From the NCBI GenBank assembly GCA_027858995.1, contig JAQIBP010000141.1:1-35003 (forward strand): DNA of 35,003 nt. Direction: 5' to 3'. This DNA comes from Deltaproteobacteria bacterium. GTDB lineage: Bacteria > Desulfobacterota > Desulfobacteria > Desulfobacterales > Desulfobacteraceae. This document shows, piece after piece, positions 5,798 to 21,597 of the stretch (position 1 is the first letter of the stretch; each line of letters opens with the position of its first letter). A model generated the notes under the pieces. That model was given only the letters and a program-made list of their open reading frames with translations. It did no database searches and was not told where the DNA came from. The position numbers were made by a program, and so were the translations under genes.

Positions 5798-5992
5798 TAT
5801 TGCTCGCTAAATCTATTTAAATGGGATATATTAATATATCATAACTACAGAAAAACCAAGCAGTTTTTTTAATCAAATTGATCTTGACTTTTAATTAAAT
5901 ACCCATTAATTTTAATTCCATCAAATGTTGGAAACATATCTTTGTCAATGAAACTTTATTATTAGTAATTCTTTATTTTCAGGAGGGGTAGC

Positions 5993-7744
5993 ATGGCTTT
6001 GAATCTCAAATCCATAGGAGAAAAGGTCGGCCCTTTTACCAAGGAGTATAAGCAGAAAGATGCAATATTGTATGCTCTTGGTGTTGGTGCAGGTTTTCGT
6101 GATCTGGAATACTGCTATGAAAAAAATCTCAAGGTTCTTCCAAGTTTTTCCATAGCATCAATCTTTGATACAATGGCAAAATTTGCAATTAAAGCCCGGG
6201 TTAATTTGGCAGGTATTTTACACGGTGAGCAGGATCTTATCTTTCACAATCCAATTCCCCCCGAGGGCACACTCACAACAAACGGGCAGATTGACAATAT
6301 TTATGATAAGGGCAAAGACAAAGGTGCTCTTGTGATAGGCAAGAGTGACACTTTTCACTCCAATGGAAAAAAACTGTTTACAAGCATATTCTCTCTTTTC
6401 TGCCGTCTTGATGGTGGATTCAGTGGTGAGAAATCTTTGAAAACTGAATTTGAATTTCCTAAAAGAAAACCTGATTTTATTGTGGAAGATAAACCGTTGA
6501 CAGGTCAGCCACTTCTTTACAGACTTTCTGGAGATATATTCCCCCTTCATGCCGATCCGAAATTTGCAAAAGCATCTGGATTTGAAAAACCCATTATGCA
6601 TGGTCTCTGCACCCATGGATTTGCATGCAGAGCGCTTTTAAGCCAGCTGATTCCCAGTGAACCGGAAAAGGCAATACGTATGAAATGCCGTTTTTCAAAC
6701 ACATTATACCCGGGTGTACCCATAAAAACACTTATCTGGAAAATAGAAAAGGGTAAAGCTGTGTGGAAAACCATAAACCAGGAGACCGGTGAAGAAATTA
6801 TTACCAATGGTCTTTTTGAATATGGTGATATACCAAAGGATGAAATACTTTTTGACGACCGTGTAGCTGTTATAACAGGTGCAGGAACCGGTCTTGGTCG
6901 AACCTATGCACTTGAGCTTGCAAAACGGGGGGCAAAAATTGTTGTAAATGATTATGGAGGAGCATTTGATGGCTCAGGAAAAGGCTCTTCATCCCCTGCC
7001 CAGATGGTTGTGGATGAAATAAAAAAAACAGGGGGTCAGGCTGTTGCCAATTATGACAATGTTGCAAGCCCGGAGGGCGGCAAAAATATCATAAAAACAG
7101 CTCTGGATGCATTTGGTACAATTGATATTCTTATAAATAATGCCGGAATTTTAAGGGATAAAAGTATAGTTAAAATGGAGCCGGAACAGTGGCAGTCAGT
7201 TCTAAATGTCCATCTTTCAGGTTCCTATAATGTAACCAGACCAGCCTTTAAAATAATGAAGGAAAAAGGCTATGGAAGAATAATCATGACCACATCTGCA
7301 GCAGGTCTTTATGGCAATTTTGGCCAGACAAATTATTCTGCAGCCAAACTTGCCCTTGTGGGATTGATGAACAGCCTGAAACTTGAAGGCTTGAAATATG
7401 ATATCAAGGTTAACACTGTAGCCCCCCTTGCAGCTTCCCGGATGACTGAAGGAGTGATGCCGACCGAGATATTTGAAAAAAGTAAACCTGAATATGTCAT
7501 GCCCATGGTACTCTATTTATGTTCTGAACTATGCCCTGTTACAGGCAATATTTATAATGCGGGCATGGGTTTTTTCAACCGGGCTGCTGTCTGCACAGGA
7601 TCAGGTGCCCTTGTAAAAGGAAAAGACGGCATTGCCAATGCTGAGGATATTGCCCATAGAATAAAGCAGATATCGAGTCTTAAAAAAGCCAAAGAGTATT
7701 TTCAGCTCAATGATCAGGTAATGGATCTTATTAAGAACGTCTGA
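5993..7744 (+). CDS. Bifunctional 2-enoyl-CoA hydratase 2 / 3-hydroxyacyl-CoA dehydrogenase (MFE-2-like)
   Basis: This 583-residue fusion is the first gene of the cluster, with AGGAGGGG just upstream of its ATG. Residues 1-280 form a double-hotdog MaoC/hydratase-2 unit with YALGVGAG near residue 28 and the active-site block GDIFPLHAD around residues 180-188. Catalytic Asp181 and His186 are present, but the conserved Asn of DxNPLH is Phe183. Residues 290-583 are an SDR close to the peroxisomal MFE-2 dehydrogenase: TGAGTGLG (295-302), NNAGI (382-386), and Ser435, Tyr448, Lys452. The unit should hydrate trans-2-enoyl-CoA and oxidise the 3-hydroxyacyl-CoA with NAD. The domain order (hydratase then SDR) is reversed from animal MFE-2. 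The SDR half is very like the SDR in the next gene. It is cytoplasmic. The natural substrate is inferred only. Confidence 0.87.
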   Translation: MALNLKSIGEKVGPFTKEYKQKDAILYALGVGAGFRDLEYCYEKNLKVLPSFSIASIFDTMAKFAIKARVNLAGILHGEQDLIFHNPIPPEGTLTTNGQIDNIYDKGKDKGALVIGKSDTFHSNGKKLFTSIFSLFCRLDGGFSGEKSLKTEFEFPKRKPDFIVEDKPLTGQPLLYRLSGDIFPLHADPKFAKASGFEKPIMHGLCTHGFACRALLSQLIPSEPEKAIRMKCRFSNTLYPGVPIKTLIWKIEKGKAVWKTINQETGEEIITNGLFEYGDIPKDEILFDDRVAVITGAGTGLGRTYALELAKRGAKIVVNDYGGAFDGSGKGSSSPAQMVVDEIKKTGGQAVANYDNVASPEGGKNIIKTALDAFGTIDILINNAGILRDKSIVKMEPEQWQSVLNVHLSGSYNVTRPAFKIMKEKGYGRIIMTTSAAGLYGNFGQTNYSAAKLALVGLMNSLKLEGLKYDIKVNTVAPLAASRMTEGVMPTEIFEKSKPEYVMPMVLYLCSELCPVTGNIYNAGMGFFNRAAVCTGSGALVKGKDGIANAEDIAHRIKQISSLKKAKEYFQLNDQVMDLIKNV

Positions 7745-7806
7745 ACAAATTGGTTGTTTTCGGTTGGGCACTAACTAAATTATAATTAAAGGGAGAATAT
7801 ATTAAA

Positions 7807-10557
7807 ATGATTGGTATTACCTCTTATGGCGCATATATTCCACGGTTGAGACTCAATCGCTCTGCCATTTACCAGAGCATGGGCTGGTTTGCTCCTGCCA
7901 CAATTGCGATTGCACAAGGCGAGCGATCCATGTGCAACTGGGATGAAGACTCCATTACCATGGCTGTGGCTGCTGCCCGTGATTGTATTCAAGGCAGGGA
8001 TAAAAACACAATTGAAGGTGTTTACATGGCATCCACTACAATGCCCTTTGCAGACAGGCAGAATTCAGGCATTGTTTCAACTGCTCTTAATCTTAGAGAA
8101 GATATCCTTACTGCAGATTTTACAGCTTCACAAAAGATTGGCAGCACTGCACTTATTTCTGCACTTGAGTCTGTAAAAAGCAAAGAGAGAAACAACATTC
8201 TTGTAACAGCAGCTGACAAAAGAGAGACCAGGAGTGCAGACTTTTATGAGATGTGGTTTGGCGATGGTGCTGCATCCCTTATGGCAGGAGACACTGATGT
8301 TATAGCTGAATACAAAGGTTCATATTCTGTTTCATGTGATTTTGTTGATCACTATCGGGGAAGCGGTCAAAAATTTGATTATGTATGGGAAGAACGCTGG
8401 CAAAGGGATGAAGGATATGGAAAGATTATTCCAAAGACCATAAAAGGTCTTATGGAAAAACTTGATATTACAATGGATGATGTTGACAAGCTGGTTTACC
8501 CATGTTTTTTCAAGCGTGATCACAAAGCAATAGCCAAACAACTTGGGGCTGCCCCTGAAAAACTTGTGGACAATATGCATGAAAAGTGTGGTGAAACCGG
8601 CGCAGCCCATTGTATCCTAATGCTTGTGGCAGCTCTTGAGCAGGCCAAGCCTGGGGATGGTATTATAATGGCAGGATTTGGCCAGGGGTGTAATGCACTC
8701 TATTTTAAGGTCACAGAAAATATAAAAAATCTTGCTCCACGCCAGGGGTTCCAGGGCTCCATTGAAAACAAACTGACTACAGACAATTATCTTAAATTTT
8801 TAAAATTCAGAGATCTTATCAAAACTGAAATGGGAATCAGAGCAGAAGCATCCACACAGACAGCAATGACAACTTTATGGCGGAAACGAAAAATGATTCT
8901 TGGACTTGTGGGAGGCAGATGTGATTCATGCGGTACAGCCCAGTTTCCAAAAACCAAAGTTTGTGTCAACCCGGATTGTGGTGCTGTCAACAGCCAGAAA
9001 GATTATGAATTTGCAGATATTAATGCCAAAATAAAAACCTTTACTTCCGATTTTCTTGCTGTATCCATAGATCCTCCCCATAAATACGGCATGGTTCAGT
9101 TTGAACATGGCGGGCGAATGATGGCGGATTTTACAGATTGTGAAGCAGATGATCTGAAAGTCGGACTGCCAATGCAGATGGTATTCAGATTGAGAGGAAA
9201 GGATAAACAGAGAGGTTTTGTTAATTATTTCTGGAAAGCAATGCCGGTTCCAGGTGCTGCAAAAGAGATGGAGAGGATATCTTATATGAACAGGGTCGCC
9301 ATTGTCACGGGAGCTGGTGGAGGGCTTGGAAGGGTTTATGCTCTTGATCTTGCCAAAAGTGGTGTCAGTGTTGTTGTTAACGATTTTGGCTCAGCGGCTG
9401 ATGGTTCAGTGCCCAATAATTCAGAAAGGGGTTCTTCAACTCCTGCCCAGACTGTTGTGGATGAAATTACAAATGCCGGCGGCAGTGCCATTGCCAATTA
9501 TGATAATGTAGCAAGTGTTAAAGGCGGTGAAAATATTGTTAAGATGGCAGTTGAAAGATTTGGCAGGCTGGATATCCTGGTTAACAATGCCGGGATACTC
9601 AGAGATAAAAGCTTTCTAAAACAGGATGCCCAGACCTGGAATCCTGTTCTTGATGTTCATCTTAATGGCTCTTTTAATGTAACCAGACCAGCCTTCAAAA
9701 TTATGAAAGATCAAAAATTCGGCAGAATTGTAATGACCACATCTGCGGCCGGGCTTTATGGCAATTTTGGCCAGACAAATTATTCTGCTGCCAAACTTGG
9801 TATTGTCGGCATGATGAATACTCTTAAACTTGAAGGGGCAAAATATGATATCATGGTGAACACTATTGCTCCCATTGCTGCATCAAGACTTACCAGGGAT
9901 ATAATGCCCCCGGAGCTTTTTGAGAAGAGCAAACCTGAATTTGTATCGCCAATGGTATTATATCTATGCAGTGATGACTGCAAAGAGACAGGACAGATTT
10001 TCAATGCAGGTTTGGGATTTTTTAACCGTGCTGCCATACTTACCGGCAATGGTTTACAGATTGGAGATCCGCAAAATCCTCCAACTCCTGAAATGATACA
10101 TGCAAATTTTGATAAGATTAACAATATGGACAATGCACAGGAAATAACAGATGCCACAAGTGCTGTACTCTCCCTTTTAGAACCTCCTTCTGAAAAAAAA
10201 GAAGCAGACACTAAAAATTCAAGCGCCAGTGCTCTTAATCCGGCTGCAATTTTTAACAATATGCTTGCAGCGTTTAATAAAGAAGCTGCTAAAGATGTTG
10301 ATGTTATTTTTCAATTTAATGTTAAAGGCCCTAAGGGTGGTAACTGGATAGTTGAAGTCAAAAAAAGAGAATGTGATATCAAGGAGGGGGATTCTTCAAA
10401 GCCTGACTGCACCTTGACCATCAGTGATGATAATTTTGTAAAACTTTTTACAGGAGCCATGACTTCAATGCAGGCATTTACATCAGGGAAGCTTTCTCTT
10501 GATGGTGACATTATGAAGTCTCAGCTTATTGAAAAATTATTCAATCTCAACAGTTAG
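7807..10557 (+). CDS. Four-domain fusion: HMG-CoA-synthase-like, DUF35 Zn-ribbon/OB, SDR, SCP2
   Basis: In this 916-residue protein, residues 1-300 align with archaeal HMG-CoA synthase from the first residue (MIGITSYGAYIP). The catalytic Glu, Cys and His positions hold Thr77, Gln109 and Pro232. Residues 360-485 are a DUF35-type zinc ribbon (Cys372, Cys375, Cys386, Cys391) plus OB fold. Residues 494-790 are an SDR with TGAGGGLG (501-508), Ser646, Tyr659 and Lys663. Residues 815-916 are an SCP2 sterol-carrier-type lipid-binding domain. The SDR probably oxidises 3-hydroxyacyl-CoA. The DUF35 part probably docks the thiolase encoded next, as DUF35 proteins do in BbsAB and in the archaeal thiolase/HMGCS complex. 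SCP2 may hold a hydrophobic acyl chain. A ribosome binding site and ATG sit at the DUF35/SDR junction. The HMGCS-like part may be a scaffold. Confidence 0.85.
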   Translation: MIGITSYGAYIPRLRLNRSAIYQSMGWFAPATIAIAQGERSMCNWDEDSITMAVAAARDCIQGRDKNTIEGVYMASTTMPFADRQNSGIVSTALNLREDILTADFTASQKIGSTALISALESVKSKERNNILVTAADKRETRSADFYEMWFGDGAASLMAGDTDVIAEYKGSYSVSCDFVDHYRGSGQKFDYVWEERWQRDEGYGKIIPKTIKGLMEKLDITMDDVDKLVYPCFFKRDHKAIAKQLGAAPEKLVDNMHEKCGETGAAHCILMLVAALEQAKPGDGIIMAGFGQGCNALYFKVTENIKNLAPRQGFQGSIENKLTTDNYLKFLKFRDLIKTEMGIRAEASTQTAMTTLWRKRKMILGLVGGRCDSCGTAQFPKTKVCVNPDCGAVNSQKDYEFADINAKIKTFTSDFLAVSIDPPHKYGMVQFEHGGRMMADFTDCEADDLKVGLPMQMVFRLRGKDKQRGFVNYFWKAMPVPGAAKEMERISYMNRVAIVTGAGGGLGRVYALDLAKSGVSVVVNDFGSAADGSVPNNSERGSSTPAQTVVDEITNAGGSAIANYDNVASVKGGENIVKMAVERFGRLDILVNNAGILRDKSFLKQDAQTWNPVLDVHLNGSFNVTRPAFKIMKDQKFGRIVMTTSAAGLYGNFGQTNYSAAKLGIVGMMNTLKLEGAKYDIMVNTIAPIAASRLTRDIMPPELFEKSKPEFVSPMVLYLCSDDCKETGQIFNAGLGFFNRAAILTGNGLQIGDPQNPPTPEMIHANFDKINNMDNAQEITDATSAVLSLLEPPSEKKEADTKNSSASALNPAAIFNNMLAAFNKEAAKDVDVIFQFNVKGPKGGNWIVEVKKRECDIKEGDSSKPDCTLTISDDNFVKLFTGAMTSMQAFTSGKLSLDGDIMKSQLIEKLFNLNS
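9270..9288 (+). promoter_or_regulatory. Internal ribosome binding site and start codon at a domain junction
   Basis: GGAGAGG (9270-9276) stands 9 bases before an in-frame ATG (9286-9288) that encodes Met494, exactly where the SDR domain begins (MNRVAIVTGAG). Initiation here would give a separate 423-residue SDR-SCP2 protein. It may instead be a fossil of two formerly separate genes. Confidence 0.5.
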
Positions 10558-10578
10558 CCAATACTTAGGAGGAGACCC

Positions 10579-11787
10579 ATGGCGACAGGAATTAAAGACA
10601 AAATTGCAATAATTGGTATGGGGTGTACCAAATTTGGTGAACGCTGGGATGCAGGAGCAGAAGAGCTCATGGTGGAGGCTTTTCAAGAGTGTCTTAAAGA
10701 TTCCGGCCTTGAAAAAAATGATATAGAAGCTGCCTGGCTTGGTACCTGTTTTGATGAAGTTAGTGTGGGAAAAACTGCAATGCCGCTTTCTACAAGTTTA
10801 AGGCTTCCCATGATTCCAGTTACAAGGGTTGAAAACTATTGTGCCACAGGAACCGAAGCCTTTAGAGGGGCTTGTTATGCTGTTGCTTCAGGTGCATATG
10901 ATATATGTCTTGCCCTTGGTGTTGAAAAGCTGAAGGATGCAGGATATGGAGGCTTGCCAAATCCCGGTTCCGGCGCCGGGACTCTAATTTGGCAATGGTG
11001 GCCAAACCTTTCTGCCCCCGGTGCCTTTGCCCAGCTTGCAAGTGCTTATACTTCAAAATACAATATATCTGATCAGGATCTTAAAAGAGCAATGGCTCAT
11101 GTTTCAGTGAAAAGCCATGATAACGGCCTGCTCAACCCCAAAGCTCATCTTCAAAAAAAAATCACTGAAGAGCAGGTAATGTCATCTCCCATTATTGCCC
11201 ACCCCTTAGGCCTTTATGACTGCTGCGGCGTAAGTGATGGAGCAGCATGTGCAATTGTCACAACACCTGAAATTGCAAAAAAAATGGGTAAAAAAGATTT
11301 TATAAGTGTAAAAGCTTTGCAGATTGCACTTTCAAGCGGTCAGGAGATAGGGTTTAATGAGTGGGACGGAGATCACTTCATGACAACTTCAAAATGCAGT
11401 ATAAAAGCCTATGAAGAGGCCGGCATAAAAAACCCGAGAGAAGAGATCAGCATGATGGAGGTGCATGACTGTTTTTCCATAACTGAACTTGTGACCATGG
11501 AAGATCTTCATATATCTGAAAGAGGCGAGGCTGTAAAAGATATAATGGATGGTGTTTATGATCTTGATGGTAAAATTCCCTGCCAGGTTGACGGTGGATT
11601 AAAATGTTTTGGTCACCCCATTGGTGCATCAGGTATAAGGATGTTGTATGAGATGTATCTCCAGCTCCATGGCAGAGCTGAAAAGCGTCAGCTTGAAAAT
11701 CCAAGATATGGTCTTACCCACAATCTTGGAGGTTTCCCGTTTCAAAATATTTGCAGCATCTCCATTATAGGCAAACATAATGCATAG
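10579..11787 (+). CDS. SCPx-type 3-oxoacyl-CoA thiolase
   Basis: This 402-residue thiolase of the SCP-x/SCP2-thiolase subfamily cleaves 3-oxoacyl-CoA with free CoA. The nucleophile is Cys88 in ENYCATG. HDCF in MEVHDCFSITE replaces the NEAF block of classical thiolases, and GHPIGASG carries the active-site His. The final CxG motif is replaced by HNLGG, as is usual in SCPx and BbsB-like thiolases that work with a DUF35 partner. AGGAGGAG lies just before the ATG, and the preceding stop is only 21 bases away. A DUF35 partner is available inside the preceding fusion protein. The subfamily accepts 2-methyl-branched or bulky 3-oxoacyl-CoAs in peroxisomes and aryl-substituted ones in toluene degraders. 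Confidence 0.88.
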   Translation: MATGIKDKIAIIGMGCTKFGERWDAGAEELMVEAFQECLKDSGLEKNDIEAAWLGTCFDEVSVGKTAMPLSTSLRLPMIPVTRVENYCATGTEAFRGACYAVASGAYDICLALGVEKLKDAGYGGLPNPGSGAGTLIWQWWPNLSAPGAFAQLASAYTSKYNISDQDLKRAMAHVSVKSHDNGLLNPKAHLQKKITEEQVMSSPIIAHPLGLYDCCGVSDGAACAIVTTPEIAKKMGKKDFISVKALQIALSSGQEIGFNEWDGDHFMTTSKCSIKAYEEAGIKNPREEISMMEVHDCFSITELVTMEDLHISERGEAVKDIMDGVYDLDGKIPCQVDGGLKCFGHPIGASGIRMLYEMYLQLHGRAEKRQLENPRYGLTHNLGGFPFQNICSISIIGKHNA

Positions 11788-11828
11788 GTCTCAAAAGTAG
11801 GGAACCCGCAATATAAATTTGAGTTTTC

Positions 11829-11870
11829 AGTTATCAGTTTTCAGTATGCTGTTGCTGACAACTGACAACT
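11829..11870. repeat. Imperfect hairpin with internal direct repeats in the intergenic gap
   Basis: The left arm (11829-11844) and right arm (11855-11870) pair at 14 of 16 positions around a 10-base loop. Each arm is itself a near-tandem copy of a short CAGTT(A/T)T- or TGACAAC-type unit. ATTTTT follows on the plus strand, so it could attenuate transcription between the thiolase and dehydrogenase genes. It also looks like a dispersed intergenic repeat. Confidence 0.5.
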
Positions 11871-11921
11871 ATTTTTAACTACAGAAATTCTGGAATAAAG
11901 CACTATATCAGGAGAAATATA

Positions 11922-13085
11922 ATGTTTGAGTTTAACAAATCTCATAAAGAGATTCAAAAAGCTGCCAGGGATTTTGCAAAGGGAGAATTTGATAAAACTT
12001 ATACACTTGAACTTGAAGAGAAACGCAAATTTCCAGATAAAATATGGGGAAAAGCTGCTGATCTCGGGTTTATTGGGATACAATTTGATGAAAAATATTC
12101 AGGTGGAAGCTTAGGGATTTTTGAAGCAGCTCTTATTGCAGAAGAATTCTGCAGGATCGATTCCACAATGGGAATGGCTTTAACTCTTTGTGCTTCAGGC
12201 TCTGAAGCAGTTTATCGTTTTGCCGAGAATGACTTAAAAGAAAAATTTCTTTCAAAAATTTGTGAAGGTGAGATGCGCTGTGCAATTGCATTTTCAGAAT
12301 CAGATCATGGTTTAGATCTTTCATCTATTAACACATCTGCTGTTATAAAGGGTGATAAACTTGTAATCAACGGGGAAAAAGCCCATGTTACAGATATTGG
12401 TGCAAAGGGGTTTTATCTTGTGCTTTGCAAAACTGACCCGACAAATGATTCTCCTGAAAAATATCTTAGCATGGTTCTTGTTGAAGCAGACAACAAAAAC
12501 ATTTTCCTTGAAGATTCAGGCGAAAAATTCAGCCTGAATATGATGAAAAGTGCAGGGCTTACATTTAAAGATGTAAAAATGCCAATATCAAATATTGTGG
12601 GCAAAGAGGGGAAAGGATTCCATCAGCTTGAAAATTTTCTCAATGAAATGAGAATTATAACTGCTGCCCAGGCTCTTGGTACTGCCCAGGGAGCATTAGA
12701 CCGTGCTGTGGAGTATATAAAGCAGAGAGAACAGTTTAACCGAAAAATTGCAAAATTTCAGATTATCCAGCATAAAATTGCAGATATGGCGACAAAGGTT
12801 GAACTTGCAAGATTGATTACCTATAAGGCAGCATATCTGTTTGATGAGGGCAGGATTGAGACAGCTTTAATTTCAATGGCAAAGATGACAGCAGCAAGGG
12901 CAGCTGTTGAAGTTGCAGACGAGGCTATTCAGCTTTTTGGCGGATACGGGTATATGAAAGAATCGGAAGTTGAACGATTTTTCCGGGATGCAAAAATGGC
13001 TGAACTGAAGTTTGGAAACAGAGCAGCACAGCAGGATATCATAGGAAGAGCTGTAATCGGTAAAATAAAGCGTAAAAGGAAATAA
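11922..13085 (+). CDS. Acyl-CoA dehydrogenase homologue lacking both usual catalytic glutamates
   Basis: This 387-residue full-length ACAD-fold flavoprotein has AGGAG before its ATG. The acyl/FAD block reads CAIAFSESDHGLDLSS (residues 120-135), a divergent form of AMTEPxAGSDLS. The C-terminal FGGYGYMKESEVERFFRDAK (339-358) is typical. The catalytic base is Glu in IYEGT in medium-chain enzymes, or Glu before Arg in helix G in isovaleryl/long-chain enzymes. Here these positions hold Phe364 (LKFGN) and Met243 (NEMR). The protein may use a different base, act on an unusual acyl-CoA, or be the partner subunit of the dehydrogenase encoded 4 bases downstream. Alpha2beta2 pairs such as ChsE1/ChsE2 are the precedent. 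Confidence 0.82.
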   Translation: MFEFNKSHKEIQKAARDFAKGEFDKTYTLELEEKRKFPDKIWGKAADLGFIGIQFDEKYSGGSLGIFEAALIAEEFCRIDSTMGMALTLCASGSEAVYRFAENDLKEKFLSKICEGEMRCAIAFSESDHGLDLSSINTSAVIKGDKLVINGEKAHVTDIGAKGFYLVLCKTDPTNDSPEKYLSMVLVEADNKNIFLEDSGEKFSLNMMKSAGLTFKDVKMPISNIVGKEGKGFHQLENFLNEMRIITAAQALGTAQGALDRAVEYIKQREQFNRKIAKFQIIQHKIADMATKVELARLITYKAAYLFDEGRIETALISMAKMTAARAAVEVADEAIQLFGGYGYMKESEVERFFRDAKMAELKFGNRAAQQDIIGRAVIGKIKRKRK

Positions 13086-13089
13086 ACAG

Positions 13090-14232
13090 ATGGATATCTT
13101 GAAATTTACCCAGGAACACGATGCATTCCGTAAACGCTTAAAAACCTTTCTTGCAAAAGAGGTAACTCCAAATGTTGACCAGTGGGAAAAAGATCATATT
13201 GTCCCCAGAAAAATATGGCAGGAATTTGGAAAAGCAGGATTTTTGTGTACATCCATCTCTGGTGAATATGGCGGGATAGGAGGGAATTTCCTATACTCTG
13301 TTATTGTTAGTGAAGAAATTTCATACACTGTTCACAGTGGCCTTGCTGTAGGCCTTCACAGTGATGTTGTGGTTCCATATATTGATTCTTTTGGTTCACA
13401 GGATCAAAAGGCAAAATACCTGCCAGGATGTGTTTCAGGAGATATTATCACAGCCATTGCTATGACTGAGCCTGATGCAGGCAGTGATCTTTCAGCCATG
13501 ACAACAACAGCTGTTGAGGATGGAGAGAGTATAATTATCAATGGTTCCAAAACATTTATATCAAATGGAATAAACTGTGATCTTGTGGTTCTTGCTGCTG
13601 CCGACCCTGCTGTTGGAAACAGACATGAAGCAATCTCTTTATATCTTCTTGAAGCTGATACTCCTGGATTTAAAAGGGGTAAACAGCTTGATAAAATGGG
13701 GTGGAACAGCCAGGACACTGCTGAATTATTCTTTTCTGACTGCTGCATACCAAAAACCAACAGGCTTGGAGATCCTGGGGCAGGATTTATACAGCTCATG
13801 ATAAAACTCCAGCAGGAACGGCTTGTGTGTGCAATGGGAGCCGTGTTTGCAGCTGAACGTATCATGGAGTTTGTAATTGATTATTGTAAAAAAACCATGA
13901 TAAGCGGCAAGCCTCTCACAAGATCCCAGGCTGTCCAGTTTGCAATTGTTGAAATGACAACACAAGTAAAACTTGGAAAAACATTTATGGAGAAACTGTG
14001 TGTTGACCACATGGAAGGAAAAAATATTGTCATTGACACTTCCATGGCAAAATATTGGACAACAGATATGGTAAATGAAATTGCTGAACGCAGCATGGAT
14101 CTTTGTGGAGAGTCTGCCCTGCTTGAATCAAACCCCATTGCAAGAGCAAAAAGAGATGTCCGTGTCATGTCCATATTTGCAGGCACAAATGAGATCATGA
14201 AGGGAATATCTGCAAAATTCATGGGTTTATAA
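13090..14232 (+). CDS. Acyl-CoA dehydrogenase, isovaleryl/long-chain type
   Basis: This 380-residue flavoprotein starts 4 bases after the previous stop, with AAGGAAA close before the ATG. It has the canonical block AIAMTEPDAGSDLSAM (residues 122-137) and SKTFISNG (153-160). Catalytic Glu243 is in LQQER, the helix-G position used by isovaleryl- and long-chain enzymes, while the medium-chain position is Ala364 (IFAGTNEIM). It should introduce a 2,3-double bond into an acyl-CoA and pass electrons to ETF. No etfAB genes lie in the window. Immediate adjacency to a base-less homologue suggests a heteromeric enzyme, which is inference. Confidence 0.9.
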   Translation: MDILKFTQEHDAFRKRLKTFLAKEVTPNVDQWEKDHIVPRKIWQEFGKAGFLCTSISGEYGGIGGNFLYSVIVSEEISYTVHSGLAVGLHSDVVVPYIDSFGSQDQKAKYLPGCVSGDIITAIAMTEPDAGSDLSAMTTTAVEDGESIIINGSKTFISNGINCDLVVLAAADPAVGNRHEAISLYLLEADTPGFKRGKQLDKMGWNSQDTAELFFSDCCIPKTNRLGDPGAGFIQLMIKLQQERLVCAMGAVFAAERIMEFVIDYCKKTMISGKPLTRSQAVQFAIVEMTTQVKLGKTFMEKLCVDHMEGKNIVIDTSMAKYWTTDMVNEIAERSMDLCGESALLESNPIARAKRDVRVMSIFAGTNEIMKGISAKFMGL

Positions 14233-14340
14233 CCGATAAACTGAATAGGTGACCAGACTTGCCCACAATAAAATTCCCCAGTTTAAAATAATGACAAGGA
14301 TATTGATAGAAGAACACAATAAAAATTAAAAGGATAAAAA

Positions 14341-15489
14341 ATGGACAACAATGGTGCATTATCAGGAATAACAGTGCTTGATCTAAGCAGGCTTCTGCCA
14401 GGTCCTTACTGCACCATGATACTTGCTGACCATGGTGCACGTGTAATAGCACTTGAAAACAAGCGCTTTAAAAACGATGCCCATTTCCTTACTCCTTTAT
14501 ACAGGAATAAGGAGCATATATCCCTTGATCTTAAAACAGAAAAAGGCCAAAAAATATTTCACAAACTTGTTAAAAAAGCAGATATCCTTGTTGAGGGATT
14601 CAGACCAGGTACAAGTGTCAGATTAAACGCTGATTATAAAAGTGTAAAAAAAATAAACCCGAAAATTATATACTGCTCCATCACTGGATATGGTCAGACA
14701 GGACCCTATCACAATCGTGTAGGACATGATGTAAACTACCTTGGTATTGCAGGAGTTCTTGATCAGATCGGAGAACCTGACAAACCTCCTTCCATACCAG
14801 GTATTCAGATGGCAGATATTGCCGGTGGATCCATGAACGCAGTGATTGGTATTCTTCTTGCCCTCCATGCAAGGGATAAGAATGGCAAAGGGCAGTATAT
14901 TGATATCTCCATGACAGATTCCATGGCATGTTTTCTGCAGATCCCTCTTTTTTTTCAGCAGTTAACTGGCAAACTCCCTGTACGGTCAGACACTATTCTG
15001 TCCCACCATTATGCCTTTTACAATACATATGAAACCCTGGACAATAAATTTCTGACCATTGGCGCTGTTGAACAGAGGTTCTGGAAAAACCTTTGTGAAA
15101 AACTTAACCTTGCAGAATATGCTTCCCTGCAATTTGATGAAGAGTGCAGAGAGGAAATCACACAATCCTTGCGCCAAAAATTTAAAGAAAAAACCCTTGC
15201 ACAGTGGGAAAATCAGTTTGGAGAGCTTGATCTTTGCTGGGGACCTGTTAAGAATCTTGAAGAGTCTCTGCAGGACATACATTTACGCCACAGAGAAACC
15301 ATTGTTGATTTCCAGGATCAAAACGGTATCAAGACTCCCACCATGGGAGTATCTATAAAACTTGGCAAAACACCAGGATCTCTTCGTACTCCACCGGTTA
15401 ATTTTGGTCAGAATACCAGAGATATCCTCAAAGAACTCGGATATTCAAAAAATGGAATTGATGATTTATTTAAAACAGAGATTGTATAG
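14341..15489 (+). CDS. Alpha-methylacyl-CoA racemase-like class III CoA-transferase family protein
   Basis: This 382-residue protein of the CaiB/BaiF superfamily has AAAGGA before its ATG. The family contains both CoA transferases and alpha-methylacyl-CoA racemase. The racemase signature GHDVNY is present, and the three active-site residues of Mycobacterium tuberculosis MCR (His126, Asp156, Glu241) appear at His129, Asp159 and Glu244, a constant offset of three. Racemase activity, converting (2R)- to (2S)-methylacyl-CoA for dehydrogenation, is therefore the better call. The Asp of transferases also exists next to the His (HD), so transferase activity cannot be excluded. A 108-base gap separates it from the dehydrogenases; the TetR gene follows after 6 bases. 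Confidence 0.83.
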   Translation: MDNNGALSGITVLDLSRLLPGPYCTMILADHGARVIALENKRFKNDAHFLTPLYRNKEHISLDLKTEKGQKIFHKLVKKADILVEGFRPGTSVRLNADYKSVKKINPKIIYCSITGYGQTGPYHNRVGHDVNYLGIAGVLDQIGEPDKPPSIPGIQMADIAGGSMNAVIGILLALHARDKNGKGQYIDISMTDSMACFLQIPLFFQQLTGKLPVRSDTILSHHYAFYNTYETLDNKFLTIGAVEQRFWKNLCEKLNLAEYASLQFDEECREEITQSLRQKFKEKTLAQWENQFGELDLCWGPVKNLEESLQDIHLRHRETIVDFQDQNGIKTPTMGVSIKLGKTPGSLRTPPVNFGQNTRDILKELGYSKNGIDDLFKTEIV

Positions 15490-15495
15490 GAACAG

Positions 15496-16158
15496 ATGAA
15501 AACACCACTTGAACATGCCCGGCAAAATCCTGAATCCATGAAAGGCAAAATTCTTAACTCTGCCAGAAAGCTTTTCGGACAATACGGATTTCACGGAACT
15601 ACCACAAGAATGATAGCATCTGATGTTGGCATTGACATATCAACACTCTATTATCACTGGGGTGAAAAAGGCAATCTTTATGAGAGTGTTGTCATTGATA
15701 TGAACCATGGAATCAGAGCCAAGCTCATGGAAGTTGAAAATATCATAAAGGGACTTCCTCTGGGACAACGTCTTGAAATTGCCATAGATGAATTGGTTGA
15801 TTATCTTTTTGAACATCCTGAATTGTCAAACCTTACAATTTTCAGATATTTCACCAAAAATCGTTATGACAGCAATTTTGATAAGGCTATTCCTGAATTT
15901 TTATCTGATATCGCCTATTCCATGGGGCTTTCCAACACAAGAGACAATACTCCCCCCCATGCAATAATGAAGGTTCTCAATATTATGAATTCAATACATA
16001 ATTATGTGTCAGGAGAAGCATTTTTTCTGCCCATGCTGGGAATAAAACACAAAGAGTATATGGATCTCACCAAAAAGACTATTAAATTATACAGCCTGTC
16101 CAACTTTGTACAGATTGAGAAAAAAATCAATAGTGACTCATCTTTTTATACTTACTGA
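15496..16158 (+). CDS. TetR-family transcriptional regulator
   Basis: This 220-residue protein has an N-terminal TetR helix-turn-helix at about residues 16-62 (KILNSARKLFGQYGFHGTTT, then DISTLYYHWGEKGNLYESV). A helical ligand-binding domain follows, with no close match I can name. AGGAA precedes the ATG, 6 bases after the racemase-like gene. As the last gene of the run it is likely the local repressor of the cluster, with an acyl-CoA or a related acid as the effector. The promoter region at 5798-5992 would be its target. This is inference from position. Confidence 0.9.
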   Translation: MKTPLEHARQNPESMKGKILNSARKLFGQYGFHGTTTRMIASDVGIDISTLYYHWGEKGNLYESVVIDMNHGIRAKLMEVENIIKGLPLGQRLEIAIDELVDYLFEHPELSNLTIFRYFTKNRYDSNFDKAIPEFLSDIAYSMGLSNTRDNTPPHAIMKVLNIMNSIHNYVSGEAFFLPMLGIKHKEYMDLTKKTIKLYSLSNFVQIEKKINSDSSFYTY

Positions 16159-16213: not shown

Positions 16214-17182
16214 TCACTCACTACTTTCCAATTTTTTCACTGTTTTTTGAACATCCTTCATGATCTTGTCAAAAAGCTCTTTGATCGTTGGAATATCATG
16301 AATAAGCCCGACGGTCTGTCCCAGGGCAAGAATTCCTGCATCAATATCACCATGATTAAACATTTTTCTTGCTTTTTTCCCTGCCACAGCATCAAGGATA
16401 GCTTCAAAACCTTCATTTGCATCTTCGATTTCCTGGCATTTTTGTGCAGCTGCATTATTCCATACACGGTGAGTTGCACCAATGGAGCGCATTACCAGCA
16501 TGGTATCAAGCTCACTGGCATCACACAAAGCCTGTTTAAGATTATCATGTATGGGGCACTCTTTTGTGAGTAAAAGCCTTGTGCCAATAATTACAGCTTC
16601 TGCGCCCAGGGCAAGAAGTGCAGTCACTCCCCTGCCGTCAGAAACTCCTCCTCCTCCAATCACAGGCAAATCAACGGCGTCTTTAACAGCAGGAACAAGG
16701 ACCAGGGTTCCGATATCCAATGTGCCGGTGGCACCACCGTTTTCATATCCTACAACCGTAACAATATCTGCTCCCATTTTTTCTACTTTTCTGGCATATC
16801 GGATTCCCACACATTTATGAATCCAGGTCATACCTGCCTCTTTAAACCTTGCGCAAAGCTCTTCCGGTGCAGAATGACCTGATGTTTCAACTATTTTAAC
16901 TTCTTTGTCCACAAGAATATCAACATAGTCATTATTATCAATGGGCCTCATTGAGGGAAAAAGATTGATATTAACGGCAAAGGGTTTGTCAGTTAACTCA
17001 TGTATACGATCAATGGCATCTGAAAACTCCTCTTTTGTCTGATAAATAGCAGAAGCCAATATACCAAGACCACCGGCATTTGAGATTGCCGCAACAAAAT
17101 CAGCCTTGGAAATGGACATCATGGTTCCACCGATAATTGGATATTTTATTCCCAGCATTCTGGTTATTTTAGTTTGCAACAT
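16214..17182 (-). CDS. Nitronate monooxygenase / FabK-like flavoprotein lacking the active-site His
   Basis: This FMN-dependent TIM-barrel protein of about 322 residues belongs to the 2-nitropropane dioxygenase/enoyl-reductase FabK superfamily. The N-terminus reads LGIKYPIIGGTMMSIS, and the phosphate-binding strands include PVIGGGGVSDGRG and GAEAVIIGTRLL. The family signature GxExGGHxG reads GYENGGATG, so the catalytic His is Ala. The reaction therefore may differ from nitronate oxidation; reduction of an enoyl-type or other alkene is one possibility. The start is set at the second Met, because AAAGG is correctly spaced from it and touches the first ATG (17186-17188). The gene converges with the beta-oxidation cluster and may be functionally linked. 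Confidence 0.78.
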   Translation of the reverse strand: MLQTKITRMLGIKYPIIGGTMMSISKADFVAAISNAGGLGILASAIYQTKEEFSDAIDRIHELTDKPFAVNINLFPSMRPIDNNDYVDILVDKEVKIVETSGHSAPEELCARFKEAGMTWIHKCVGIRYARKVEKMGADIVTVVGYENGGATGTLDIGTLVLVPAVKDAVDLPVIGGGGVSDGRGVTALLALGAEAVIIGTRLLLTKECPIHDNLKQALCDASELDTMLVMRSIGATHRVWNNAAAQKCQEIEDANEGFEAILDAVAGKKARKMFNHGDIDAGILALGQTVGLIHDIPTIKELFDKIMKDVQKTVKKLESSE

Positions 17183-17223
17183 ATTCATCCTTTATAAAAT
17201 TATTTTGTAAATCATTTGATATT

Positions 17224-17676
17224 TCATGGCCTGGTATCATATTTAGAGTCATTGGGATTATATGGATTTAAAACATCAATGATATTATTATCCTGGTTGA
17301 CCTTGACTACAGTATAATAATAGTAGGAAAACCAGACACCAATTTTATCACCTGTGGTATCCAAAATATCTGCAACTGTCATTTTATAGTAGTTTTCAGG
17401 TGTATCTGCTAAATTATCTATTTTTAAAAAAAGATCATCCAGGGTATTGATTTTATGCCAGACTCTATCATTGAATTTATATTTTTTATCAATGCCGATT
17501 ACTGCATAGGGCAAACCGGAACGCCCGCAATAATAATAATTAAACTCCTCAATTTGCAGAGTATCTTTATATGAACTTGATAAATATTGATTTAATTGGA
17601 TTTTACCAAAGGAACCTGTACACCCTGATAAAAACAACAGCATCACGAGATATAATGATATTTTTTGAATCTTCAT
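17224..17676 (-). CDS. Putative lipoprotein of unknown function
   Basis: This is a 150-residue protein with a lipoprotein signal peptide: a charged start (MKIQK), a hydrophobic core and the lipobox LSGC with Cys19 as the lipidation site. The mature part is rich in Tyr, Asp and Asn and has no motif I recognise. It has segments such as YYYCGRSGLPYAVIGIDKK and a Tyr-rich strand near residues 118-122. It should be anchored to a membrane facing the periplasm. It sits between the flavoprotein and purQ on the same strand, and an operon link is uncertain. Confidence 0.72.
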   Translation of the reverse strand: MKIQKISLYLVMLLFLSGCTGSFGKIQLNQYLSSSYKDTLQIEEFNYYYCGRSGLPYAVIGIDKKYKFNDRVWHKINTLDDLFLKIDNLADTPENYYKMTVADILDTTGDKIGVWFSYYYYTVVKVNQDNNIIDVLNPYNPNDSKYDTRP

Positions 17677-17772
17677 TTTTTTCCCTATATGTATTCACAT
17701 CACATTGCAATCTTTGCTTTGATTAGTCAATAGCATTAAAGTGCAAAATATTAACAGCAGATCAGATTCTAA

Positions 17773-18591
17773 TCAAATATGTTTTTTAATATAATCAACA
17801 CCATTTTTAAATAACTTTACTCCAATTGTTTCCTGATCAAGGGGTTTGCCCTCTCGTTTAAGCAGTTGAATTTTGCGTGTCCAGTCAGGGTGATTTGTAA
17901 AATGGTTATAGGCTTCAGGATGTGGCATAAGGCCAAAGATTCTTCCTGTTGGATTACAGATTCCCGCTATATCGTCAATGGAACCATTTGGATTTAAGGG
18001 GAATCTGCCATTGGCAGGTGAGCCAGATTTATCTGCATATTGAAGTACCACCTGATTATTATCCACAAGAGTGTCAATAATTTTCTTGTCTGCAATAAAT
18101 TTGCCCTCTCCATGGCGGATGGGAAAATCTGCAATATCAATATCTTTTGTAAATACACAAGGACTTTTCTTATTTACTGCAAGGTGTACCCATTGATCCC
18201 GAAAGTTACCGCAGTCATTATAAGTTATGGCAACAGATCTTTTGGTATAATCACTATCAAGCCCTGGCAGAAGTCCAAGATTGACAAGAGCCTGGAATCC
18301 ATTGCAGATACCAATGACAAGGTTGCCATGATCCACAAAAGATAAGAGCTCATTCCCTATATGATCTTTAAGCTTTAAGGCTTGAATAACGCCTGCACCA
18401 TGGTCATCACCCCAGGAAAAACCTCCGCCAAAGACAAAAATTTGAAAATCCTTAAGTTTGATTTTTCCTGAAATTAAACTGTTTATGTGAATTTTGTGAG
18501 CCTTTGCTCCTGCAAGTTCAAATACATGGGCAGTTTCATTGTCACAATTCAGGCCAAACCCTGTTAATATAAGTGCGTTAACCTTTTTCAT
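17773..18591 (-). CDS. purQ: Phosphoribosylformylglycinamidine synthase, glutaminase subunit
   Basis: This 272-residue class I glutamine amidotransferase supplies ammonia to PurL in the fourth step of purine synthesis. The nucleophile is Cys96 in GICNGFQ, and the catalytic His lies in MPHPEAY near residue 220. Its ATG overlaps the purL stop by four bases (ATGA), so the subunits are translationally coupled. The protein is somewhat longer than the 225-230 residues of Bacillus-type PurQ, in keeping with the larger PurL partner. Confidence 0.93.
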   Translation of the reverse strand: MKKVNALILTGFGLNCDNETAHVFELAGAKAHKIHINSLISGKIKLKDFQIFVFGGGFSWGDDHGAGVIQALKLKDHIGNELLSFVDHGNLVIGICNGFQALVNLGLLPGLDSDYTKRSVAITYNDCGNFRDQWVHLAVNKKSPCVFTKDIDIADFPIRHGEGKFIADKKIIDTLVDNNQVVLQYADKSGSPANGRFPLNPNGSIDDIAGICNPTGRIFGLMPHPEAYNHFTNHPDWTRKIQLLKREGKPLDQETIGVKLFKNGVDYIKKHI

Positions 18592-21500
18592 ATCATCTCT
18601 CCAAAGGTTTTATTAAATGCTTTTTCCATATTTTTTATTGAAAGATCAATGAGCGCATCTTTGTAATGACCAGCAATTTTTAAATGGTCATGTTTGTCTG
18701 TTACCATGCCTATGCAGGCTGCAGGCATATCTTTTATTAATGTTTCAAACTTAATTTTGTTTTCAGGTGCTATTGTAACTATAAACCTGCCGGCAGATTC
18801 TGAATACAACAAAATTTCATCAAAAAGATTACCACGGTTTGTATCCATTGGAAGATCTGACAAGCTGATTTCAATTCCCAGACCACCAGCCATTGCCATA
18901 TAGGACAGATGCACACCAAGACCTCCTCTTGCAACAGCATGACAGGAGGCTACAAGTTCATTTGTTATGGCTCGTTCAATTATCTTATACATATCTTTAA
19001 ATTTATCAAAATCAACACGGGGAACATTTATACCGGTTTTTTCAAAAAGCTCATAATATTCCGATGCCCCAAGTTCATTTGCAGTAGCACCCAGTATATA
19101 TACAAGATCTCCTGAAACTTTTGGCTCCATGGTCAGGCATTTTGATACATCATCAATTACAGATGTTGCTGAAAACTGAATGGTTTCCATGGCAGACATT
19201 TTAACTCTTTCACCAAATTCACCTTGAATATGCCCGTCCACATACATGCTGTCCTTACCTGACAGAAGAGGAATCTCATATTTTTCACATGCCTCTTTTA
19301 AAGCTCTGCAAGCCCTTACAAGCTGTGCTGCCTTAAATTTGCCATCAGGATTATTTTTGGGATCAAATTGTATAGTTGGCCAGCAAAAATTATCAAGCCC
19401 GCCAATATGATCAAAATTACCACCCACGGCCATTAGTCTTCTAACAGCTTCATCAATGGTGCAGGTCATCATGTGGTATGCATCTATTTTTGAATACCAT
19501 GGCAAAAGGCTCTGTGAAAATGCAAGTCCCTTTTGTGATGTTATTACTGGTCTTGTAACTGAAGCATCAGAAGGGATATTGTGCTTGACTCCAACCAGAG
19601 GTTTGATGACGGAACCGCCTTGGACCTCATGATCATATTGACGGATAATCCACTCTTTAGAAGCAATATTGGGTCTTTCAAGCATTTTAAGCAGTAATTT
19701 ATTAAAATCAGATGGAGAACCTATAACCGGTTCTGTCAATCCTCGAGTTTCTGGAGATAACCATACGGCATCAAATTCCCAGGAAGGAAATCCCTTTTCA
19801 AGAAGATCCATATCCACATAGGCACATGTTTCTTCTTTGTATTTAATGTGCAGTTTACCGCTGTTGGTATACTCTCCTATGACCGTGCTTTCAACTTCAT
19901 GCAGTGCAGAAAGCTCCATAAATCTGTCGAGATTTTCAGGTTTTACAGCAATGGTCATGCGCTCCTGGGATTCTGAAATCCAGATTTCCCACATATCAAG
20001 GCCTTCATATTTCAGAGGTACTTTATCCAGCCAGACCACGCATCCATTGGATATCATGGCAGATTCACCGATTGATGAAGATAAACCCCCTCCTCCATTA
20101 TCGGTTATAAATGGCATTAAATCTTCATCCCTGCAGATTAAAAGGAAGTCATGCATTTTTTTCTGGGTATAGGGATCACCAATCTGAACATGACCGGCAG
20201 GTGTGTTTTCAGAATAGCTTTCTGAAGATGCTGTAACGCCATGAATCCCATCTTTCCCCACCCGGCCCCCGCTCATGATAATAAGATCGCCGGGAGAAGT
20301 TTTCTTTTTATGACTTGGCTTTCCCTTGACCTGGTTTGGCATAATTCCAAGGGCAGTTACAAAAACCAAGCTTTTGCCCATATAATCCTTGTTAAACAGA
20401 GTCTGGCCAAAGGTTGTGGGAACACCGCTTTTATTTCCCCCATCTTTTACACCTTCTATTACGCCATCAAGAAGTCGTCTTGGATGAAGCGGTGGTTTTA
20501 ATGGGCCATCATAGTTTATATCACCCACACAATATCCAAAACTTCCCATGAACAGTTTGGAACCAAGTCCTGTTCCCATGGGATCGCGGTAAACTCCTAC
20601 TATACCTGTTATTGCACCACCATAAGCTTCCATGTTAGAAGGGGAATTATGAGTCTCGCCTGTAACTACATAATTGTTTTCATCATCAAACCTGCCAACT
20701 CCTGCATTGTCCCATAATACAGAGACAACCCACTCTTTTTGATCTTTTAATTTCAGAGTAGGCTCCTTGATATAGGTTTTAAACAGGTTTTTCTCAAGGG
20801 CCTCCTCGTTACTTGCTGCATCTTTATACCTGAAAGTTCCCTGAAAAGTATTATGATTGCAGTGATCACTCCGTGCCTGGGAAATGTATTCAAGTTCCAG
20901 GTCTGTGGGCTCTTTAAGGCCTACCTGTTTTCTTGATTCCAAAACCTTTGAATCCAGAAAATACTCTCTGATCACAGGTATATCAAGAATATTTAACGCA
21001 AGATTTCTCTGATCTGAAATATCTGCAAGGCCCGCATTTGAACCAATGTTGATAACTTCACAACAGGGAGTATGATCAAGTATAACCCTGGCAGTCTTCA
21101 CATTGGCGCCTCTATCCCTGTCCCATTCATCGATATGAAAAACTTTAAACTGCTGAATAATGCTGTTGGACAAAAGCTCCGAGGCCAGTTTTTCCACATC
21201 TTCACGATTTAACCCCTTGGCTGTAATACAATACCGTTTTGAGGTATATATGTCTTCATCAGGTTCAAATATCTTACCAAGATGATCCTGAATTGCCTCT
21301 TTTGCAGTTGCACCCGCATTATCTTTAACTCCAGGTCTAAAACCAATCCAGATACACCAGTCAAACTTTATATCAAGGGGTTTTAAACTTGAAACCTGGG
21401 TCACCGGATTGGTAAAAATCTCATCTTTAATCTTTTCAAGCTGCTGTTCACTGAAATCTGATTCAATTGTCACAATATCTATGCATCGTGCATCTTGAAT

Positions 21501-21596: not shown

Positions 21597-21597
21597 A

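Follow-up and report, generated by a model that had tools for sequence, protein, structure and literature searches.

Organization of the gene cluster

Seven open reading frames (ORFs) on one strand fill positions 5993 to 16158 of the DNA analyzed here, a stretch of 35,003 nucleotides (the window) of contig JAQIBP010000141.1 from a Desulfobacteraceae genome deposited as Deltaproteobacteria bacterium (GCA_027858995.1). They encode a hydratase-dehydrogenase (ORF1), a four-domain fusion protein (ORF2), a thiolase (ORF3), two acyl-CoA dehydrogenase (ACAD) homologues (ORF4, ACAD1; ORF5, ACAD2), an alpha-methylacyl-CoA racemase (AMACR; ORF6), and a TetR regulator (ORF7) (Table 1). The original prediction for this region, made from the sequence of the window alone, was a bacterial cluster mirroring peroxisomal branched-chain beta-oxidation. 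The ORFs and Pfam matches confirm that the same-strand seven-gene cluster is real, and the predicted gene list agrees with the Pfam families, except that it had missed the 3-hydroxy-3-methylglutaryl-CoA synthase (HMG-CoA synthase, HMGS)-like domain in residues 1 to 340 of ORF2. We consider it fairly likely that the operon encodes a single beta-oxidation spiral that acts on acyl-CoAs with an alpha-methyl (2-methyl) branch and releases propionyl-CoA.

Table 1. Features of the cluster and its surroundings in the window (SDR, short-chain dehydrogenase/reductase; LCAD, long-chain acyl-CoA dehydrogenase)
Feature	Position	Strand	Basis
Predicted operator TTCCATCAAATGTTGGAA	5916..5933	.	59 bp 5' of ORF1 start; presumed TetR binding site
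ORF1, hydratase 2 (residues 18-271) and MFE-2-type (3R)-hydroxyacyl-CoA dehydrogenase SDR (residues 287-560)	5993..7744	+	PF22622, PF01575, PF00106
ORF2, four-domain fusion HMGS-like/DUF35/SDR/SCP2	7807..10557	+	Pfam, NCBIfam, and PDB matches
HMG-CoA-synthase-like domain without catalytic Cys/Glu	7807..8826	+	PRK04262 below cut-off, PDB matches, alignment
DUF35, zinc ribbon and OB fold (zf-ChsH2/OB)	8905..9189	+	PF12172 and PF01796 above cut-off; Cys motifs
Second MFE-2-type SDR domain, Ser-Tyr-Lys	9292..10176	+	Pfam, alignment, PDB match
SCP2 lipid-carrier domain	10255..10542	+	PF02036, 74.9 bits
ORF3, thiolase; putative DUF35 partner	10579..11787	+	PRK06157, 709 bits (cut-off 403)
ORF4 (ACAD1), acyl-CoA dehydrogenase-like	11922..13085	+	PF00441/02770/02771; neither canonical base Glu
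ORF5 (ACAD2), LCAD-like acyl-CoA dehydrogenase	13090..14232	+	PDB matches; helix-G catalytic Glu
ORF6, alpha-methylacyl-CoA racemase, CoA-transferase III fold	14341..15489	+	MCR is best PDB match; triad
ORF7, TetR regulator	15496..16158	+	PF00440; synteny
FabK-like nitronate-monooxygenase-family flavoenzyme, possible accessory member	16214..17188	-	PF03060

The ORF2 fusion and its thiolase

The N-terminal domain of ORF2 belongs to the ACP_syn_III_C family by Pfam and matches PRK04262 with 197 bits (NCBIfam cut-off, 244). Its best PDB matches include PhlA-type chains (122.7 and 112.9 bits) and archaeal HMGS (99.1 bits). The Glu and Cys of archaeal HMGS align with Thr and Gln, respectively, in the ORF2 of the window. 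Among 28 aligned rows (including that of the window; two row pairs probably represent the same genomes, and L011 and one piece of L026 were dropped because they did not cover the positions), the Cys position is occupied by Gln in 24 and by Cys in none, and the Glu position by Glu in none. An HMG-CoA synthase has both the catalytic Glu and the Cys; the ORF2 domain has neither. According to PMC6392133, PhlA also lacks Cys and Glu, and acyl transfer uses residues of PhlC only.

Among solved structures, ORF3 is nearer to 7yvy and to the thiolase found in the archaeal thiolase/HMGS/DUF35 complex (6esq, 192.6 bits) than to SCP2-thiolase (138.5 bits); 7pxp scores 145 bits. The original assignment of ORF3 as an SCPx-type thiolase is therefore not retained: the SCP2 domain is on ORF2, and SCP2-thiolases are not the closest relatives of ORF3. 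The nucleophilic Cys and the HDC and GHP motifs are kept in 23 of 23 thiolase rows, that of the window included. Enzymes of the Sal/Ltp2 type carry a Y-D-C/H motif and do not share the thiolase Cys, whereas ORF3 has HDC and retains the Cys.

An HMGS-like domain, DUF35, and a Cys-bearing thiolase are thus encoded together, as for PhlACB and the archaeal complex. These homologies suggest that ORF2 and the thiolase probably form a PhlACB-like complex with a dehydrogenase and a lipid carrier attached. More tentatively, the two proteins might constitute a beta-oxidation metabolon of a type for which no description was found. In it, the dead HMGS fold, with Gln in place of Cys, would serve as a CoA/acyl cradle shared by the thiolase docked on DUF35 and by the MFE-2-type dehydrogenase, to which an SCP2 carrier is joined, so that the 2-methyl-3-oxoacyl-CoA would reach the thiolase without being released.

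Hydratase, dehydrogenases, and racemase

Both SDR domains carry Ser-Tyr-Lys and are of the MFE-2 type: those of ORF1 and ORF2 match human HSD17B4 with 305 and 289 bits, respectively, versus 172 and 167 bits for the best non-MFE-2 SDR chains in the PDB. The hydratase part of ORF1 is only narrowly nearest to human MFE-2 (171 bits versus 164 for a MaoC protein). The intact hydratase 2 motif, which we take to be GDxNPxH, is visible in fly MFE-2 in the alignment. The window (motif region, positions 6518 to 6577) and 16 other loci have GDxF instead of GDxN, with the Asp and His kept. This replacement of Asn by Phe might be tied to a 2-methyl substrate. Since GDxNPxH is not intact, we call ORF1 MFE-2-like rather than a member of MFE-2, and the domain order also differs: MFE-2 joins SDR, hydratase, and SCP2 in a single chain, whereas ORF1 has the hydratase before the SDR. 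The SCP2 domain is here on ORF2; several relatives carry one on ORF1 as well.

ACAD2 matches 2pg0 (396 bits) and human LCAD (276 bits). It has the LCAD-type arrangement, with a Glu on helix G and none at the J-K loop (QQERL and FAGTNEI), and QQERL is found in 14 of 14 relative rows. Leu occupies the place of LCAD Pro132, a residue linked to bulky substrates in PMC11153573. In ACAD1, neither canonical base position holds a Glu in any of six sequences (the window included), and all six keep a Glu one residue ahead of the helix-G place; the partial sequence in L015, outside this set, has Asp at the J-K place. The two neighboring genes thus encode an ACAD pair of which one member lacks the canonical catalytic Glu and which might form a hetero-oligomer; alpha2beta2 ACADs with the Glu on the alpha subunit are described for mycobacteria (PMC11153573).

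Among solved structures, ORF6 scores highest against the alpha-methylacyl-CoA racemase MCR (195.7 bits), ahead of the best CoA-transferase (165.6 bits). The triad residues, presumably His126, Asp156, and Glu241 in MCR, are found in GHDVNY, MADIAGG, and GAVEQRF of ORF6, and His/Asp/Glu are present in the window and in seven of seven relative AMACR rows. The AMACR triad of the original prediction is thereby upheld, and ORF6, with a CoA-transferase III fold and the His-Asp-Glu triad, is predicted to be an alpha-methylacyl-CoA racemase.

Conservation and distribution of the cluster

Scanning GTDB genomes with ORF2 yielded 24 loci, of which 19 (L024 to L042) match the HMGS/DUF35 part and five the SDR only. 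As the original prediction had proposed to check, the gene order recurs in several named Desulfobacterota loci, usually as TetR, hydratase 2-SDR(-SCP2), HMGS-DUF35-SDR(-SCP2), thiolase, (ACAD1), ACAD2, (FabK-like), and AMACR. The TetR gene is terminal in the window, L024, and L025 and lies 5' of ORF1 in most relatives. Twelve operon loci include downstream DNA (the window, L024, L025, L027, L028, L029, L031-L035, and L039; L041, with an unfused HMGS-DUF35 protein, was excluded). AMACR is inside the cluster in eight of them, and ACAD1 is present in six, the other six having ACAD2 alone. L025 carries an acyl-CoA synthetase gene between ACAD2 and TetR.

A FabK-like gene lies within the operon in L028 (70% identity) and L032 (69%), and eight of those 12 loci gave no FabK-like match. 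The corresponding protein of the window, encoded next to the cluster on the opposite strand, scores 249 bits against the FabK model (cut-off, 453). L027 (17132-19174) encodes a 2,4-dienoyl-CoA-reductase-like protein (Pfam), which has a homologue in L029 (20867-22894); this kind of protein and the FabK-like flavoenzyme could both reduce unsaturated acyl thioesters.

In a sample of 297 genomes of the phylum, including that of the window, 89 encode an HMGS-DUF35 protein (E <= 1e-60). A frame of >800 residues with a strong match occurs in 13 of the 297, to which G158 adds one weak match, and the long fusion is present in 2 of the 26 genomes of the genus, again counting that of the window. The cluster therefore looks like a patchy accessory trait.

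Some observations concern its position. purQ adjoins the cluster in the window (16214-18591), and in the sibling genome G017 the FabK-like gene, TetR, and AMACR likewise lie beside purQ (C572, L113), the contig ending just past AMACR. No cluster was found at purQ in the eight other siblings fetched there (for G018, only ~3 kb past purQ), and in G020 the cluster and purQ are on separate contigs. That the cluster adjoins purQ in the window and G017 but not in these other siblings suggests gain or movement of an island. The PurL encoded farther on (1008 amino acids; window 18588-21614) has a PurS-like match at its N terminus (PF02700).

A palindrome upstream of the operon

Comparison of the DNA 5' of the first operon gene revealed the palindrome TTCCATCAnnTGATGGAA. 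Nineteen sequences were scanned, of which 15 are copies of the operon with upstream DNA (the window, L025-L037, and L039), and all 15 contain the palindrome with <=3 mismatches, 20 to 151 bp ahead of the implied first residue of the first gene product (TetR or ORF1). The loci scanned had themselves supplied the consensus; mononucleotide shuffling gives a background of ~0.7 sites with <=3 mismatches over the 347 kb of the whole set. Mean pairwise identity is 0.80 inside the sites versus 0.35 in the 25-base flanks. L024, L041, L042, and L113, which have no upstream DNA or belong to another operon, showed no palindrome at that position. From its conservation and place, the palindrome at 5916 to 5933 is the predicted operator of the TetR encoded by the operon, which would bind and repress there. 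Some loci (e.g., L027, L031, L034, and L036) have an extra TTGG half-site just 3' of the palindrome, suggestive of a second binding register.

A predicted regulon in Desulfatibacillum

The operons of Desulfatibacillum alkenivorans DSM 16219 (L034) and Desulfatibacillum sp. MAG7 (L031) lack AMACR. A loose form of the pattern gave 104 rows from 11 genomes, and matches were obtained with its backwards control as well; the TGGAA-ended form was used as the strict pattern. Strict palindromes occur at exactly five distinct places in each Desulfatibacillum genome (backwards-control counts, 3 and 0), and those outside the operon lie 148 to 343 bp 5' of gene starts. The genes that follow, named from Pfam family and neighbors, encode (i) an AMACR-family protein (L153 and L156), 33% identical to that of the window, with the triad read in L153; (ii) a methylmalonyl-CoA-epimerase-like protein and then a carboxyl transferase (L152 and L160); (iii) a malate-dehydrogenase-like protein (L151, with a 90% identical ortholog in L159); and (iv) a FadE-type ACAD (L161 and L155, the contig ending there in L155). 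An acyl-CoA synthetase gene precedes the Desulfatibacillum AMACR gene on the same strand, and the palindrome lies between its stop and the AMACR start. In D. alkenivorans, an Fe-S membrane protein gene after FadE (L161:7149-8681) could represent an electron outlet from acyl-CoA dehydrogenation.

All eight non-operon strict places in Desulfatibacillum are outside ORFs, versus 1 of 33 such matches in eight other genomes, where the sole intergenic one is in L181 and the remaining 32 fall inside ORFs; Fisher's test gives a p of about 1e-7, and the eight places are not independent because the two genomes are related. The looser rows examined, L157, L158, and L166, are all within ORFs. The intergenic site (L181:2560, in the genome of L039) lies ~55 bp 5' of a weak patatin-like gene (26 bits; cut-off, 27.7). 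A patatin-like phospholipase could free fatty acids from lipids, and the site possibly belongs to the regulon and is possibly a chance match.

A distant AMACR behind the same palindrome means that the racemase link reappears via shared regulation, and the predicted control of propionyl-CoA-type carboxylation fits propionyl-CoA as a product. Judged from these sites, the putative regulon fits the breakdown of alpha-methyl acyl-CoAs to propionyl-CoA.

Metabolic setting of the genome

The genome of the window contains three matches to the methylmalonyl-CoA mutase family. For dsrA, it gave only matches below the cut-off; an assembly gap is as probable as true absence because 18 of the 26 genus members pass the cut-off. 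Sulfate reduction is therefore likely for the genus and not established for this genome. A cbb3-like oxidase gene is also present, scoring under the NCBIfam cut-offs. Acyl-CoA dehydrogenases are used by oxygen-respiring and other bacteria alike, so that the ACADs of the cluster are not a sign of anaerobiosis, as had originally been proposed from their replacing the peroxisomal oxidase.

PFL-type glycyl radical enzymes (PF02901) were found in 10 of the 11 genomes examined, that is, in all except that of the window. The genome of the window is 97.1% complete and gave no PF02901 match, although a gap is possible. An alkylsuccinate or benzylsuccinate origin of the substrate was rejected for this genome on that ground.

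Proposed function and alternatives

In the pathway that we propose, AMACR would convert both 2-methyl epimers to the form accepted by the dehydrogenase, and ACAD2, perhaps with ACAD1 as a catalytically silent partner, would produce the 2-methyl-2-enoyl-CoA. Addition of water by the ORF1 hydratase 2 domain would give the (3R)-hydroxy compound, which the MFE-2-type SDRs in ORF1 and ORF2 would oxidize. The thiolase would then cleave the 2-methyl-3-oxoacyl-CoA, releasing propionyl-CoA and leaving an acyl-CoA shortened by three carbons. ORF2 may act as the organizer: its DUF35 and pseudo-HMG-CoA-synthase domains would provide a docking site for the thiolase comparable to that in PhlACB or in the archaeal thiolase/HMGS complex, while the SDR would hand over the oxo-acyl substrate and the SCP2 domain would carry long acyl chains. 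TetR would repress the operon at the upstream palindrome. As to substrates, isoprenoid acids or the methyl-branched fatty acids of membranes, 10-methylpalmitate for instance, could be considered as possible leads; for 10-methyl fatty acids, a literature search yielded nothing direct among its titles and abstract openings. Nothing in the data points positively to cyclic or aromatic substrates.

Several observations weigh against this assignment. AMACR is not beside the operon in 4 of the 12 loci, and for two of these, L025 and L035, no regulon link was found either. The extended regulon is seen in two related genomes only, and in the genome of the window the operon site is the sole good match, accompanied by a weaker match within an ORF. 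The activity of the hydratase is uncertain because all rows seen have Phe where the motif has Asn. A FabK-like reductase within or next to the cluster might indicate a synthetic direction. An AlphaFold2 model of the whole ORF2, made with 15 near relatives, was poor (pLDDT, 62.6; pTM, 0.38) and was not used.

The operon could instead serve general beta-oxidation of long- or odd-chain fatty acids, with mostly straight-chain substrates and the racemase as an accessory. The loci without a clustered AMACR, the acyl-CoA synthetase in L025, and the LCAD-like ACAD2 agree with this, and odd-chain acids would use propionyl-CoA genes too. We nevertheless regard it as rather unlikely: the second AMACR, 33% identical, stands behind the same palindrome in both Desulfatibacillum genomes; hydratase 2/MFE-2, a racemase, and SCP2 are generally known as the peroxisomal branched-chain set; and the patchy distribution of the cluster within the genus differs from that of housekeeping fatty acid oxidation.

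Degradation of steroid or bile-acid side chains, with the thiolase acting as an aldolase like Sal/Ltp2, would account for the DUF35-thiolase pairing and the paired ACADs, both known from steroid side-chain pathways (PMC12329534 and PMC11153573). The thiolase itself speaks against it, since it keeps its Cys and has HDC rather than YDC/YDH, and Sals and SLPs are reported to share none of the five SCP-2 thiolase Cys residues (PMC12329534); so does the Leu of ACAD2 at the LCAD Pro132 place. A scan of 30 proteins encoded in the window, to which the search for steroid genes was confined, found no steroid-specific family. The thiolase motifs and this Leu led us to reject the steroid reading, which we rate as very improbable.

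Equally little credence is given to the view that the operon handles 4-methyl or 2-methyl acyl-CoAs derived from n-alkanes via fumarate addition. A racemase is counted among the genes of that pathway in PMC5756336 and PMC6776118 (in the latter, epimerizing methylalkylsuccinates), and the other genomes examined do encode PFL-type glycyl radical enzymes. Those enzymes, however, are identified by family rather than as alkylsuccinate synthases, the genome of the window has no match to the family, and PMC6776118 suggests that the racemase may be dispensable, reporting it as missing from the metagenome-assembled genomes of that study and from alkane-degrading Smithella. Products of fumarate addition are not expected as the substrate in this genome, and the hydrocarbon origin suggested in the original prediction is abandoned for this organism.

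Scarcely probable at all is a biosynthetic (reverse) spiral in which propionyl-CoA would be condensed to build methyl-branched lipids and the FabK-like protein would serve as the enoyl reductase. Although that gene lies in or beside some clusters and the solved structures nearest to the HMGS-like part belong to biosynthetic proteins, the operon holds two ACADs and a racemase, the palindrome also precedes FadE and the malate-dehydrogenase-like gene, and most loci with downstream DNA lack a FabK-like match.

Breakdown of 2-methyl acyl-CoAs thus keeps the peroxisome-like alpha-methyl core of the original interpretation, on the basis of homology and of the regulon in the two Desulfatibacillum genomes, and drops its hydrocarbon origin and its sign of anaerobiosis. 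The genes by which sediment bacteria mineralize methyl-branched chains (membrane lipids, isoprenoid acids, and hydrocarbon-derived acids) are poorly assigned; in Desulfococcus multivorans, for example, the genes for the steps of isobutanoate degradation past CoA activation were not assignable according to PMC5109826. With the operon and its palindrome, further work can start from a delimited set of genes and a predicted regulon, with D. alkenivorans DSM 16219 as a cultivable test species.

Comparison with known systems

With the peroxisomal AMACR/MFE-2/SCPx/SCP2 system, the operon shares a triad racemase, hydratase 2, an MFE-2-type SDR, a thiolase, and SCP2, and eukaryotic MFE-2 is clearly the closest PDB relative of the SDR parts and narrowly that of the hydratase part. 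It differs in having acyl-CoA dehydrogenases in place of the oxidase, a hydratase that precedes the SDR and has Phe for the motif Asn, two SDRs, and an SCP2 domain fused to the HMGS-like/DUF35/SDR protein instead of the thiolase.

BbsAB (benzoylsuccinyl-CoA thiolase), ChsH2-Ltp2, and Shy-Sal also combine a thiolase-fold enzyme with a DUF35 domain; the accessible part of PMC12329534 does not describe an HMGS-like partner for them. Unlike Sal, ORF3 keeps the Cys, and it is nearer to archaeal 6esq than to 7pxp. The mycobacterial alpha2beta2 ACAD ChsE4-ChsE5 resembles the ACAD1-ACAD2 pair in its adjacent genes and in having the canonical catalytic Glu in one subunit only, but the Pro of LCAD and ChsE4 is absent from ACAD2, half of the clusters do without ACAD1, and the pair is known here from its genes.

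The closest parallels to ORF2 and ORF3 are PhlACB and the archaeal thiolase/HMGS/DUF35 complex (6esq), which likewise comprise an HMGS-like protein, DUF35, and a Cys-keeping thiolase, and, as in PhlA, the HMGS-like part of ORF2 is without the Cys and Glu. In contrast to both, ORF2 joins the HMGS-like and DUF35 domains to an SDR and SCP2 in what appears to be a catabolic context. No description of the cluster or of the four-domain fusion was found among the titles and abstract openings of the open-licence literature. Branched-chain beta-oxidation itself is known; its proposed placement on a PhlACB-like pseudo-HMG-CoA-synthase scaffold would be new. If correct, the pseudo-HMG-CoA synthase in a catabolic fusion would mean that beta-oxidation has taken over the archaeal/PhlACB thiolase scaffold.

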